The position numbers and the translations under genes are program-made. Source: Pseudoglutamicibacter cumminsii (GTDB lineage Bacteria; Actinomycetota; Actinomycetes; Actinomycetales; Micrococcaceae). From it: 64,000 bases of DNA. The stretch is taken from positions 186,001-250,000 of the forward strand of contig NZ_QFWG01000002.1 in the NCBI RefSeq assembly GCF_003143995.1. The letters are read 5' to 3'. Below, one piece after another: positions 607-6,326 of the stretch (within the stretch, counting starts at the first letter, position 1; the number at the start of each line of letters is the position of its first letter). The notes under the pieces are model-generated. The model made no database searches. It had not been told where the DNA came from and saw nothing but the letters and a program-made list of their open reading frames with translations.

Positions 607-655
607 CGATGCGGCGGGTGCCTTCCGTAGGGGAGGTGCCCGCCGCATCGGCGTT
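607..655 (+). terminator. Terminator-like hairpin after rpoC
   Basis: GATGCGGCGGG (608-618) pairs with CCCGCCGCATC (639-649), an 11-bp GC-rich stem. Inside it CCTTCC (621-626) pairs with GGGAGG (631-636) around a GTAG loop. Only a short T-run (gcgttt) follows, so it may be an imperfect intrinsic terminator. Confidence 0.75.
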
Positions 656-839: not shown

Positions 840-869
840 TTGTGGTGATAGCGAAAATGCTGATACAGT
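840..869 (+). promoter_or_regulatory. Candidate rpsL promoter
   Basis: TTGTGG (840-845) and TACAGT (864-869) are separated by 18 nt. An alternative -10 is GATACA at 862-867. The start of transcription would be near 876, just before the structured leader at 887. This is by eye only. Confidence 0.4.
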
Positions 870-886
870 TGTTAATCAGAGTTTTC

Positions 887-1040
887 GTGTGGAGAAGTGG
901 ACTCAGTCCGTGTCATTCGCAGGTTGAATGACGTACTCCACACTTTCGCACGCCTCGGACCATGCGGTTTAGAGATCGCGAGAAAACGATAACCGCACGC
1001 ATCGCCCGCCCGTCTTACTTTGTGGGGCACCAGGGTGGGC
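887..1040 (+). ncRNA. Structured 5' leader of the rpsL-rpsG-fusA operon
   Basis: Three helical domains follow one another. Domain 1 is a three-way junction: GTGTGGAG (887-894) pairs with CTCCACAC (936-943), enclosing a GGAC/GTCC hairpin (899-909) and a GTCATTC/GAATGAC hairpin (912-932, 7-nt loop). Domain 2 is TGCGGTT (963-969) with AACCGCA (991-997). Domain 3 is GCCCGCCC (1004-1011) with GGGTGGGC (1033-1040), one G-U pair. The last helix ends 23 nt before the ribosome binding site gtaagga (1064-1070). The pairing is seen in the sequence; a regulatory role, for example binding of S12 or S7, is inferred. I find no coding sequence in the 515-bp gap. Confidence 0.6.
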
Positions 1041-1076
1041 TCGCGGACAGTCCGATCAGCAACGTAAGGACATAGA

Positions 1077-1451
1077 TTGCCTACAATTCAGCAGCTGGTG
1101 CGCAAGGGTCGCGCTCCACAGAAGAACAAGTCGAAGACCCCGGCGCTTGAGGGTAACCCAATGCGACGCGGCGTGTGCACCCGCGTGTACACGACCACTC
1201 CAAAGAAGCCGAACTCCGCACTCCGCAAGGTTGCACGTGTTCGCCTCGCTGGTGGTACCGAAGTTACCGCCTACATCCCAGGTGAGGGCCACAACCTGCA
1301 GGAACACTCCATCGTGCTTGTGCGCGGTGGTCGTGTTAAGGACCTGCCAGGTGTTCGCTACAAGATCGTCCGTGGCGCACTCGACACCCAGGGTGTCAAG
1401 GACCGCGGCCAGGCCCGTTCCCGCTACGGCGCTAAGAAGGAGAAGAAGTAA
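1077..1451 (+). CDS. rpsL: 30S ribosomal protein S12
   Basis: S12 sits at the decoding centre of the small subunit. The 124-residue product has the signatures KKPNSALRK and [11 protein letters not shown]. The lysines whose substitution gives streptomycin resistance in other bacteria (K43 and K88 of E. coli numbering) are both present, so the sensitive form is expected. The start is TTG at 1077, preceded at 6 nt by gtaagga; no in-frame ATG nearby would give a normal N-terminus ([11 protein letters not shown]). It is the first gene of the str operon, and its stop overlaps the rpsG start by one base. Confidence 0.97.
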
Positions 1452-1921
1452 TGCCTCGTAAGGGTCCAGCTCCGAAGCGCCCTATTGTCAACGATCCGGT
1501 TTACGGCTCCGCATTGGTCACCCAGCTGATCAACAAGGTTCTCGTAGACGGTAAGAAGTCCACTGCAGAGCGCATTGTTTACGGTGCACTTGAAGGTACC
1601 CAGGCTAAGACCGGCAACGACCCGGTAGCCACCCTCAAGAAGGCCATCGAAAACATCAAGCCTGCACTTGAGGTTCGCTCCCGCCGCGTCGGTGGTGCAA
1701 CCTACCAGGTTCCAGTTGAGGTCAAGCCTGGTCGCTCGGTTGCACTCGCACTGCGCTGGCTGGTCGGCTTCTCCAAGGTTCGCCGCGAGAAGAGCATGAC
1801 CGAACGCCTCATGAACGAGATCCTGGACGCCTCCAACGGCCTCGGCGCTGCAGTTAAGCGTCGCGAGGATACTCACAAGATGGCGGAAGCCAACAAGGCG
1901 TTCGCTCACTACCGCTGGTAA
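1451..1921 (+). CDS. rpsG: 30S ribosomal protein S7
   Basis: S7 nucleates assembly of the 30S head by binding the 3' major domain of 16S rRNA. The 156 residues match the family length. Conserved parts include the N-terminal PRKGPAPKR and the stretch [12 protein letters not shown], and the protein ends AHYRW. The TAA of rpsL and this ATG share an A, so the two genes are translationally coupled. In E. coli S7 is the repressor of this operon; whether that holds here is unknown. A 13-bp hairpin separates it from fusA. Confidence 0.97.
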
Positions 1922-1930
1922 TCCACGTTC

Positions 1931-1959
1931 TACCCGGTGGCGATCCTCGCCACCGGGTA
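1931..1959 (+). terminator. Intra-operon hairpin between rpsG and fusA
   Basis: TACCCGGTGGCGA (1931-1943) pairs perfectly with TCGCCACCGGGTA (1947-1959) around a 3-nt TCC loop, giving 13 bp. There is no T-run after it, so it may slow polymerase, protect or trim the message, or bind a protein rather than end transcription. fusA follows 28 nt later with its own good ribosome binding site (gtaaggga). Confidence 0.6.
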
Positions 1960-1987
1960 CTGACACTTCAACCGTAAGGGAGACACC

Positions 1988-4102
1988 GTGGCACTCGACG
2001 TGCTCACCGACCTTCAGAAGGTCCGCAACATCGGCATTATGGCCCACATCGATGCGGGCAAGACCACTACTACGGAACGCATCCTGTTCTACACGGGTGT
2101 GAACCACAAGCTCGGCGAGACGCACGACGGTGCATCGACGACCGACTGGATGGAGCAGGAGAAGGAGCGCGGTATTACCATTACCTCCGCTGCAGTCTCC
2201 GCTTACTGGAACAACAACCAGATCAACGTCATCGACACCCCAGGTCACGTTGACTTCACCGTTGAAGTTGAGCGTTCCCTGCGCGTTCTCGACGGCGCTG
2301 TCGCTGTCTTCGACGCTAAGGAAGGCGTTGAGCCACAGTCCGAAACCGTGTGGCGTCAGGCTGACAAGTACGGCGTTCCACGTATCTGCTTCGTCAACAA
2401 GATGGACAAGATGGGCGCAGACTTCTACCACACGGTAGAGACCATCGTGTCCCGCCTTGGCGCTAAGCCACTCGTGATGCAGCTGCCAATCGGTGCTGAG
2501 AACGACTTCGTTGGCGTTGTCGACCTCGTCACGATGAAGGCCCTCAAGTGGGAAGCTGACTCGAAGGGCGACGTCTCCCTCGGCCAGAAGTACACCACCG
2601 AGGAAATCCCAGCCGACCTCCAGGAGAAGGCTGAGGAATACCGCGCGAAGCTCGTTGAGGACGTCGCTGAAGCTGACGAAGACCTCATGGAGAAGTACCT
2701 CGAAGGTGAGGAGATCTCGGAAGCTGAGCTCAAGGCCGGTATCCGTAAGCTCACCGTCTCCGACGAAGCTTACCCAGTCTTCTGCGGCTCCGCGTTCAAG
2801 AACCGCGGTATCCAGCCAATCCTTGACGCCATCGTCGACTACCTGCCATCGCCACTGGATGTTCCACCGATGCACGGTACCGATCCGAAGGACGAGACGA
2901 TTGAGCTGACCCGTAAGCCATCCGTCGACGAACCATTCTCGGCTCTCGCGTTCAAGATCGCGTCCCACCCATTCTTCGGCACCCTGACCTTCATCCGCGT
3001 TTACTCGGGCCGCCTCGAATCCGGTGCTCAGATCCTGAACTCGACCAAGGGCAAGCGCGAGCGCATCGGCAAGATGTTCCAGATGCACGCAAACAAGGAA
3101 CAGCCAGTCGAAGAGGTCGTAGCGGGCCACATCTACGCGGTCATCGGCCTCAAGGACACCACCACTGGTGACACCCTGTGCGCAGCTGACGCTCCGATCA
3201 TCCTCGAATCGATGACCTTCCCAGAGCCAGTGATCTTCGTTGCTATCGAGCCGAAGACCAAGGGCGACCAGGAGAAGCTCTCGAACGCTATCCAGAAGCT
3301 CGTTGCTGAAGACCCAACCTTCACCGTTTCCCTCAACGAGGAAACCGGCCAGACCGAAATCGGTGGTATGGGCGAGCTGCACCTCGACGTCTTCGTCGAC
3401 CGCATGAAGCGCGAGTTCAAGGTTGAAGCTAACGTCGGTAAGCCACAGGTTGCATACCGCGAGACCATCCGCCGCACGGTGGAGAAGGTCGACTTCACCC
3501 ACAAGAAGCAGACCGGTGGTTCCGGTCAGTTCGCAAAGGTACAGGTTACCTTCGAGCCTCTCGAGGTTGAAGGCGACACCATCTACGAGTTTGAGAATGC
3601 CGTTACCGGTGGCCGTATTCCACGCGAATACATCCCATCCGTTGACCAGGGTATTCAGGAAGCCATGGAACTCGGTGTCCTGGCTGGCTACCCAATGGTC
3701 GGCGTCAAGGCAACCCTGCTCGACGGTGCATACCACGATGTTGACTCGTCCGAAATGGCGTTCAAGATCGCAGGCTCCCAGGTTTACAAGGAAGCCATGA
3801 AGCGCGCCAACCCGGTTCTCCTCGAACCGGTCATGGCCGTTGAGGTTCGCACCCCAGAAGAGTACATGGGTGACGTCATCGGTGACCTGAACTCCCGCCG
3901 TGGCTCCATCCAGTCGATGGATGACGCCCAGGGCGTTCGCGTCGTCAAGGCACAGGTACCGCTTTCGGAGATGTTCGGCTACATCGGCGACCTGCGTTCC
4001 CGTACGCAGGGCCGCGCAGTGTACTCGATGGTCTTCGACAGCTACGCTGAAGTCCCGAAGAACGTCGCGGACGAGATCATCCAGAAGTCCCGCGGCGAGT
4101 AA
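1988..4102 (+). CDS. fusA: Elongation factor G
   Basis: This GTPase drives ribosome translocation and, with RRF, ribosome recycling. The 704-residue protein has G1 [15 protein letters not shown] near residue 19, G3 DTPGHVDF, and G4 NKMD near residue 138. Domain IV contains the loop segment [12 protein letters not shown]-like [14 protein letters not shown]. Length and order fit canonical EF-G1 rather than the duplicated EF-G2 paralogue. The GTG start at 1988 is 6 nt after gtaaggga. A 12-bp hairpin follows at 4118-4155, before the separate tuf promoter region. Confidence 0.98.
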
Positions 4103-4117
4103 TTCCTGTGGGGAGAA

Positions 4118-4155
4118 CAAGTGGGCGGCGCTGCCGCGGTAGGGCCGCCCACTTG
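4118..4155 (+). terminator. Hairpin after fusA
   Basis: CAAGTGGGCGGC (4118-4129) pairs with GCCGCCCACTTG (4144-4155), 12 bp with a 14-nt loop. A second smaller hairpin, CCGCCGG (4160-4166) with CCGGCGG (4185-4191), follows. Neither has a clear T-run, so partial read-through into tuf is possible. Confidence 0.6.
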
Positions 4156-4343: not shown

Positions 4344-5537
4344 GTGGCAAAGGCAAAGTTTGACCGCTCCAAGCCGCACGTAAACGTTGGCACCATCGGC
4401 CACGTTGACCACGGTAAGACGACGCTCTCCGCTGCTATCTCGAAGGTACTGGCTGACCGTTTCCCATCGGAGACCAACGTCCAGCGCGACTTCGACACCA
4501 TTGACTCCGCTCCGGAAGAGCGCCAGCGCGGTATTACCATCTCCATCTCCCACGTGGAGTACGAGACCGAGAAGCGTCACTACGCACACATTGACGCTCC
4601 AGGCCACGCTGACTACGTCAAGAACATGATTACCGGTGCTGCTCAGATGGACGGCGCAATCCTCGTGGTTGCTGCTACTGACGGCCCAATGGCTCAGACC
4701 CGCGAGCACGTTCTGCTGGCCCGCCAGGTTGGCGTTCCTGCACTGCTCGTTGCACTCAACAAGTGCGACATGGTTGACGACGAAGAGCTCCTCGACCTCG
4801 TCGAGATGGAAGTTCGCGAACTTCTGTCCTCCCAGGGCTTCGACGGCGACGACGCACCAGTTATCCGCGTTTCCGCTTACCAGGCTCTCCAGGGCGACGA
4901 GAAGTGGGCTGACTCCATCATGGAGCTCATGAACGCTGTTGACGAGTACATCCCAGACCCAGTCCGCGAGAAGGATCAGCCATTCCTGATGCCAATCGAG
5001 GACGTCTTCACCATTACCGGTCGCGGTACCGTTGTTACCGGCCGTGCAGAGCGCGGTACCCTCAAGCTCAACTCCGAGGTTGAGATCGTTGGTCTGCGCC
5101 CACTGCAGAAGACCACCGTTACCGGTATCGAGATGTTCCACAAGCAGCTCGACGAAGCATGGGCTGGCGAGAACTGTGGTCTGCTGCTCCGCGGTCTCAA
5201 GCGTGAAGACGTTGAGCGCGGTCAGGTTGTTGTCGAGCCAGGCTCGATCACCCCACACACCGAGTTCGAGGCAAACGTCTACATCCTCTCCAAGGACGAG
5301 GGTGGCCGTCACAACCCGTTCTACTCGAACTACCGCCCACAGTTCTACTTCCGTACGACTGACGTGACCGGTGTTATTACCCTCCCAGAGGGCACCGAGA
5401 TGGTTATGCCAGGTGACACCACCGAGATGACCGTCGAGCTCATCCAGCCAATCGCTATGGAAGAGGGCCTCGGCTTCGCTATCCGTGAGGGTGGCCGCAC
5501 CGTTGGTTCGGGCCGCGTTACCAAGATCATCAAGTAA
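4344..5537 (+). CDS. tuf: Elongation factor Tu
   Basis: EF-Tu delivers aminoacyl-tRNA to the ribosomal A site as a GTP complex. The 397-residue product carries [10 protein letters not shown] (G1), DAPGHADY with the catalytic histidine (G3) and NKCD (G4). Domains 2 and 3 are complete, down to the end GRVTKIIK. The GTG start follows ctaggaggaacct. It belongs to the str cluster but is set apart from fusA by hairpins and a promoter-like region, and a good intrinsic terminator lies 58 nt past its stop. It is the only tuf in the window. Confidence 0.98.
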
Positions 5538-5742: not shown

Positions 5743-5828
5743 GGATAAGTTGGCTTTTTAGGGCTAAAGCTCTGCGCCAACAAGATCCCCGCAAAATAAT
5801 CAGGCGTACAACACCGCAACGTTGAAGA

Positions 5829-5907
5829 CACGCCCGAGTGCGTGGATCGGAGCTCGGCCGAGGCAAGGAACCCTGAAGTTTCAGGATTTGGCTCGAAACC
5901 GGGCGTG
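5829..5907 (+). ncRNA. Structured leader of the S10 operon (rpsJ leader)
   Basis: CACGCCCG (5829-5836) pairs with CGGGCGTG (5900-5907), closing a domain. Within it CCTGA (5872-5876) pairs with TCAGG (5881-5885), and CTC/GAG or CCGAG/CTCGG pairings compete around 5834-5862. The 480-bp gap between tuf and rpsJ holds no gene I can support, so most of it downstream of 5750 is probably this leader. In E. coli L4 controls the S10 operon through its leader; a similar role here is inference. Confidence 0.5.
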
Positions 5908-6017: not shown

Positions 6018-6326
6018 ATGGCGGGACAGAAGATCCGCATCCGGCTGAAGTCATACGACCACGAGGTCATTGACACCTCCGCCCGCAAGATCGTGGATAC
6101 GGTCACTCGCGCTGGCGCAACCGTCGTCGGCCCAGTGCCACTGCCAACGGAGAAGAACACGTTCACCGTGATTCGCTCCCCACACAAGTACAAGGACTCC
6201 CGCGAGCACTTCGAGATGCGCACCCACAAGCGCCTCATCGACATCGTGGATCCAACTCCAAAGGCCGTCGACTCGCTTATGCGCCTCGACCTGCCAGCGG
6301 ATGTCAACATCGAAATCAAGCTTTAA
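6018..6326 (+). CDS. rpsJ: 30S ribosomal protein S10
   Basis: S10 is a small-subunit head protein and, in other bacteria, also NusE, a partner of NusB/NusG in antitermination. The 102-residue product, beginning [19 protein letters not shown], has the family length and the long loop region [17 protein letters not shown]. The ATG follows gtaaggaagacagc. It opens the S10 operon, which runs without a terminator to rpsQ. A 377-nt leader upstream is described separately. Confidence 0.97.

Follow-up and report, generated by a model that had tools for sequence, protein, structure and literature searches.

A conserved three-way junction ahead of rpsL in Micrococcaceae, a candidate ribosomal-protein leader of the str operon

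The stretch analyzed here, hereafter the window, comprises 64,000 nt of Pseudoglutamicibacter cumminsii (Micrococcaceae; contig NZ_QFWG01000002.1, positions 186,001 to 250,000 of the forward strand), and our subject is the leader that precedes its rpsL gene, which encodes ribosomal protein S12. As named from reading their translations, the genes follow each other in the order rpoC (ending at 561), rpsL, rpsG, fusA, tuf, and rpsJ, with a long hairpin between the first two, and the str operon mRNA corresponds here to rpsL-rpsG-fusA-tuf (Table 1). An initial annotation, made from the sequence of the window alone, had described five helices in the rpsL leader as a possible protein- or ligand-binding structure lying between a promoter candidate and the ribosome-binding site (RBS). 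Direct reading of the sequence found all five in the positions given there, between the extended −10 box and the RBS of rpsL. The first three helices (P1, P2, and P3) make up a three-way junction spanning positions 887-943, in which P1 closes two arms, and comparison among relatives shows that this junction is a real, conserved RNA structure.

Table 1. Coordinates of the leader elements, genes, and other features of the window.
Feature	Position	Strand	Remarks
Long hairpin 3' of rpoC	608..649	+	Near-perfect inverted repeat; 11 exact basal pairs GATGCGGCGGG/CCCGCCGCATC
Extended −10 box TGATACAGT of the rpsL promoter	861..869	+	TGnTAnnnT pattern
P1, closing helix of the three-way junction	887-894/936-943	+	8 bp; covariation; swap test z 6.30 (used as positive control)
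P2, hairpin GGAC-UCA-GUCC	899-902/906-909	+	4 bp, three-base loop
P3, hairpin GUCAUUC-GCAGGUU-GAAUGAC	912-918/926-932	+	7 bp
Linker UUUCGCACGCCU	944..955	+	Conserved segment that follows P1
P4, UGCGGUU/AACCGCA	963-969/991-997	+	7 bp; family form GGUC...GACC in many genera
P5, GCCCGCCC/GGGUGGGC	1004-1011/1033-1040	+	8 bp, one G-U; genus-level hairpin
RBS of rpsL, AAGGA	1066..1070	+	Outside the junction
rpsL (S12), TTG start	1077..1451	+	Reading frame translation; protein search
rpsG (S7)	1451..1921	+	Start codon shares 1 nt with the rpsL stop
fusA	1988-4102		Name from translation
tuf	4344-5537		Name from translation
Box before rpsJ	5827-5850		5' of the rpsJ start at 6018
rpsJ	from 6018		Name from translation

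Covariation was scored on A1, a MAFFT alignment of 19 family members with a short P2 that was not fitted to any structure. Over the three helices, 97.5% of its 323 cells are paired and 8 of the 17 pairs have changed on both sides, giving a covariation score of 0.230 as compared with 0.117 in shuffled alignments (0/500 as high) and with 0.096 at most when the partners were slid. RNAalifold, to which no structure was given, recovered the same junction unaided. A second alignment, of 89 distinct model-aligned sequences and this time fitted to the structure, yielded both-side changes at 11 of the 17 pairs and a score of 0.208 versus 0.104, again unequaled in 500 shuffles; across the family, all six modelled pairs of P3 have changed on both sides. 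The window itself departs from the family consensus at six pairs, every one of them compensated: four in P3 (C-G, A-U, U-A, and U-A in place of U-A, G-C, C-G, and G-C) and two in P1 (A-U and G-C in place of C-G and A-U). A search for covarying pairs among the rpsL spacers of relatives was the check that the initial annotation had proposed, and the family alignments indeed reveal strong covariation.

The distribution of the element is confined to the family in the samples searched. Relatives' rpsL regions were fetched by protein search, in which 37 family genomes were found and loci were obtained for 30; the rpsL protein was matched in 58 of the 59 genomes searched, and three loci (L047, L164, and L167) have no readable rpsL start. 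Inspection located the element in all 31 Micrococcaceae loci fetched by the rpsL protein, three of which (L016, L020, and L025) carry a degenerate version. Nesterenkonia sp. Act20, another member of the family, whose S12 is 90% identical to that of the window, has the same leader element. We then built two covariance models, R1 from 19 sequences and R2 from 99. R1 matched 251 of 295 Micrococcaceae genomes, representing 31 of 32 genera, with two matches in one genome (G174), and R2 matched 284 of the 295, representing all 32 genera, with a single match per genome. The 11 genomes without an R2 match belong to genera g3 (7), g6 (2), g11 (1), and g24 (1), and remaining members of g3 and g6 gave some of the weakest matches; L016 and L020, both of g3, have a junction that is degenerate and richer in AT. 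At E ≤ 0.01, the model searches returned 24 genomes from an order sample of 297 and 2 from a phylum sample of 396, all of them Micrococcaceae. When 39 order genomes were searched less strictly (E ≤ 1), seven from outside the family came up with E values of 0.04-0.95, which is chance level; 55 other actinobacterial rpsL regions, two without a readable rpsL start, gave no match at E ≤ 1.

Model searches covered 99 of 124 family loci, several of them repeats, with L003 and L005 among those left out. Of these 99, 29 had been chosen via rpsL alone, and all 29 matched (weakest E, 0.0011), the other 70 having been chosen via their R1 match. Every one of the 99 copies precedes rpsL, the match starting 168-286 nt (median, 194) 5' of the start codon.

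Conservation extends to bases outside the helices: several positions in the loops and the junction, like the greater part of the linker UUUnGCACGCC, vary little or not at all. The linker that follows P1, UUUnGCACGCCU, is nearly invariant, and in its form UUUnGCAnGCC the UUU, the A, and the GCC are identical in all 19 aligned members. P2 is either short, as in the window, or extended into a long hairpin in other genera, with the GGA/UCC base present in the own minimum-energy fold of 19 of the 23 long forms, and P3 retains 6-7 pairs across the family, together with a partly conserved loop. Shuffle and swap tests were used in the search for a consistent pairing partner of the linker, and none was established; from these and the folding-energy tests we excluded L197, L205, L207, and L227, which lack the linker pattern. 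Pairing of UUnGCAC with GUGCGA was rejected as a general feature (p ≤ 0.05 in 11/94 sequences; swap test z 0.27). Similarly, a helix P0 between the 5' tail (RAUUGUUU) and the AAACGA of P4 is suggestive in single sequences and is not claimed here: it reached p 0.05 against shuffles in 8/94 sequences (controls, 0/49 and 3/94), and its swap test (z 2.12, p 0.024) is barely above the control (z 1.87, p 0.036).

Alignment with MAFFT followed by RNAalifold, from which 15 further divergent loci were excluded, disclosed no common fold of the linker and P4, and P4 thus rests on the swap test. In that test, whose units are related species, its own strands fit better than strands taken from different species (z 4.51, p 0.0004; control z 1.27), and its signal against shuffles is weak (p ≤ 0.05 in 9/94 sequences versus 2/94 in the control). 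P5 is visible by eye in the four genus members examined (L002-L005). The five helices of the initial annotation separate into a junction that holds across the family, a P4 that does so more loosely, and a P5 seen only in the genus of the window. Directly 3' of the RBS, a possible small hairpin GGACAC-GAAA-GUGCC was noticed by eye over the rpsL start codon of several family members, for example L007, L013, and L015.

Folding energies were calculated for the same region, which had been credited with more order than expected of a GC-rich spacer. This proved true of the window junction alone (z −3.33) and not of the longer stretch, where energies are only moderately unusual (196-nt leader, z −1.69 with 7/200 shuffles as good; 126-nt stretch, z −1.54 with 14/200). 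Over 79 distinct family members, the junction has a mean z of −2.54, with 67 of them below −1.5. The minimum-energy structure of the 196-nt leader re-pairs the inside of P1, and the centroid is the junction as described; in the minimum-energy fold of the 126-nt stretch (875-1000), the junction is present and P4 is displaced by pairing of the 5' tail. The decisive evidence for the proposed structure is comparative, that is, conservation and compensatory change, rather than folding energy.

The promoter is conserved along with the junction. TGnTAnnnT occurs in 96 of 98 distinct family sequences, its hexamer starting 19-27 nt (median, 24) 5' of the P1 core, and a strict promoter scan of the window reported no site at the rpsL −10 box. 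With the −10 box conserved in this position, the 5' end of the RNA is expected shortly ahead of P1; transcription is accordingly predicted to start near position 876, so that the junction would begin ~10 nt further 3'. The initial annotation had made its structured leader depend on a transcript start no further downstream than 943, and the predicted start lies well upstream of that point.

Collectively, these data argue, with a probability that we put at roughly 0.6, that positions 887-943 and the adjoining linker (to 955), to which P4 (to 997) may more loosely be added, act in cis as a ribosomal-protein leader of Micrococcaceae within the 5' UTR of the str mRNA. Such a structured site, placed once at the predicted start of the mRNA and retained throughout the family, would suit the needs of an autogenous leader, and binding of a ribosomal protein or other ligand, as initially suggested, is plausible. 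The leader would probably be a switch that tunes the amounts of S12 and S7. The str operon is known to be controlled in Escherichia coli, and in cyanobacteria such control is considered likely. In Micrococcaceae, a str-operon protein present in excess over 16S rRNA would bind the junction and lower the output of the operon. S7 would be the likelier ligand, because it is a primary rRNA binder and the known str repressor in E. coli, and S12 would come second. Of 31 loci, 26 have rpsL and rpsG overlapping by 1 nt and the other 5 have them 1 nt apart, so that one site in front of the two genes, where the mRNA begins, could control them together. As the junction ends ~120 nt 5' of the RBS, control is probably not exerted by direct covering of the start site; it might instead be relayed from a distance, by way of the variable GC-rich hairpins that follow, through early termination or closure of the start region.

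Several observations weigh against a regulatory leader of this kind. A consensus scan, made on the window only, found no T-run terminator between 887 and 1076, and the leader gave no sign of sequestering the RBS. Compared by sequence only, the leader aligns to 16S rRNA no better than its own shuffles (101/200 as good), the family-consensus leader behaves alike (112/200), and mimicry of 16S at the sequence level was rejected for this reason; the reference was the 16S of a congener (G002), because the search found none in the window's own draft assembly. One covariation measure on A1, the number of further pair types, is not unusual (188/500 shuffles as high), and the rpsL coding stretch taken as control also beats its shuffles in folding energy (mean z −1.59, n = 31). 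Moreover, in most individual sequences some frame stays open for long over the junction (median, 75 codons; fewer than 20 in 2/99), which is attributable to GC-rich DNA. An upstream open reading frame was nonetheless rejected, as the three frames are stopped in 27, 30, and 36 of 79 sequences, and none is open throughout the family.

The strongest competitor, although an unlikely one, is a structured leader without a dedicated ligand, for instance a stable 5' end that shields a very abundant mRNA against decay or leaves its RBS free. Both the placement of the junction ~10 nt past the transcript start that the −10 box predicts (box in 96/98 sequences) and the location of the RBS outside it would suit such a role; yet a leader that did no more than cap the mRNA would not require its unpaired bases to be conserved, whereas those of the loops, junction, and linker are conserved, which suggests recognition. 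Transcription attenuation by alternative terminator and antiterminator, as predicted for the rpsL leaders of other bacteria, could draw on the GC-rich hairpin 3' of the junction (1004-1040). We hold it to be improbable, given that the leader lacks a terminator-like site with a T run, as stated above, and that no common fold was found 3' of the linker.

A riboswitch or another small-molecule or tRNA sensor of the translation operon appears less probable still. In its favor are the compactness of the three-way junction and the conservation of unpaired positions. Metabolite sensors, however, usually control several operons, and here R2 gives one match per genome and the 99 copies examined all lie 5' of rpsL. 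Nor did known families account for the element: Rfam 15 returned no covariance-model match in the window leader at E ≤ 5, and a scan of another 14 loci, including 5 from Micrococcaceae, at E ≤ 0.5 gave a single match, below the cut-off and ~700 nt from rpsL (L044). Finally, we give very little credence to conservation at the DNA level, as a promoter or regulator site, or to chance inverted repeats. The element does lie directly behind a conserved promoter, but a DNA site would give no reason to expect compensation at 11 of 17 pairs, with a score that 0/500 shuffles reach.

Two further features of the window deserve mention. The hairpin at 608-649 is presumably the rpoC terminator, separating rpoC from the str operon; it is absent from the output of the T-run terminator scan, and a microRNA match on it in the Rfam scan (E 4.5) is meaningless. 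Opposite rpsG and fusA, an open frame of 898 codons runs on the minus strand (1424-4120); codon bias in so strongly coding a region has probably produced it as an artefact.

Many Actinobacteria outside the family carry a different signature at rpsL, a box with the pattern CGACACRCCCG..CGCGKGGG. Observations on this box, at rpsL or rpsJ, come from the window and from loci L034-L068, L153-L172, L238-L261, and L265-L294. A sequence close to CGACACGCCCGACCGCGGGGGUCGG is present in 34 of 56 actinobacterial rpsL regions outside Micrococcaceae, a count made without a shuffle control. A pattern search allowing ≤2 mismatches hit 58 of 296 phylum genomes and, by our own count of the listing, 35 with the reversed control, which indicates that the weaker matches are mostly due to chance. 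Among 30 box loci fetched, the 24 with 0-1 mismatch lie 5' of rpsJ (20) or rpsL (4), and the 6 with 2 mismatches lie elsewhere. In Micrococcaceae, a sequence model of the box matches 115 of 120 genomes, and all 30 loci checked have it 5' of rpsJ, as does the window; none of 28 Micrococcaceae rpsL leaders contains it, the sole match (L025) being downstream of rpsL. The box has no consensus helix on 46 aligned copies and no Rfam match in the loci scanned. The linker of Micrococcaceae might conceivably derive from the box by divergence, but the box model R3 misses the linker and the likeness is limited to CACGCC.

In other Actinobacteria (L033-L068 and L153-L172), rpsL leaders were seen by eye often to start with a GUGCCCG-loop-CGGGC hairpin, followed by a sequence near CUCGCGUGCG, behind a −10-like box. 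One genome, G115, has two copies of the rpsJ box ~300 nt apart (C1:446500-446529 and 446807-446833), and in genus g21 the five sampled genomes (G023, G072, G095, G114, and G131) all lack an rpsJ-box match and keep the rpsL junction.

The rpsL leader of Micrococcaceae thus differs from that of many Actinobacteria and the rpsJ leader does not, which suggests a replacement. We tentatively propose, as a possible scenario that we regard as doubtful, that Actinobacteria ancestrally shared one box for str and the S10 operon, and that the Micrococcaceae ancestor replaced the rpsL copy by the junction leader, with S7 or S12 as its ligand, and kept the box at rpsJ. If this were true, control of S12, S7, EF-G, and EF-Tu would have been uncoupled from the S10 operon, and the replacement of a regulator in a core ribosomal operon would be traceable to one family. 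A box shared by rpsL and rpsJ would also offer a handle on the coordination of ribosome synthesis in Actinobacteria, including antibiotic producers and pathogens.

Neither a Micrococcaceae rpsL leader nor an rpsL/rpsJ box is described in the full-text literature covered here, outside of which lie subscription papers and most supplements. The accessible text of PMC8269248 and PMC6429828 describes no rpsL leader, and that of PMC11109978 reports an rpsJ motif in Peptostreptococcaceae and likewise no rpsL leader. Eckert and Weinberg (2020, PMC7247131) present 20 candidate ribosomal-protein leaders, several of them actinobacterial (for L17 and L31), and their Table 1 lists none for S12 or S7; these candidates belong to the same class as the leader proposed here. 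The rpsL leaders described as multiform attenuators by Naville and Gautheret (2010, PMC2965389) are also located 5' of rpsL and, unlike the Micrococcaceae leader, feature terminators with T runs. The closest parallel in these sources is the rpsL motif of 'Candidatus Pelagibacter ubique', placed between rpoC and rpsL and considered a likely ribosomal-protein regulator, with no ligand named (Meyer et al. 2009, PMC2704228). It resembles the window leader in its rpoC-rpsL position, in a three-stem junction on P1, and in its covariation. According to that account, however, it is restricted to Pelagibacter and marine metagenomes and has a bulged P1 and a nearly invariant J2-3, whereas, set against this published description only, our element has an unbulged P1 in the 19 aligned members and GU, GG, or AU at J2-3.

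In E. coli, S7 represses str at a site between rpsL and rpsG, and S7 is a primary assembly protein, S12 being a late binder (PMC10931766). This site acts on the same operon as the Micrococcaceae leader and likely serves the same purpose, yet it occupies an rpsL-rpsG spacer that none of the 31 Micrococcaceae loci possesses, which makes an E. coli-type S7 site impossible here, in agreement with the initial annotation, which expected control at this site to differ from that of E. coli. On comparative grounds, the element is best described as a candidate ribosomal-protein leader of a type for which we found no description, with strong evidence for its RNA structure. Sharply defined and found in nearly every sampled Micrococcaceae genome, it comes with a consensus ready for testing.
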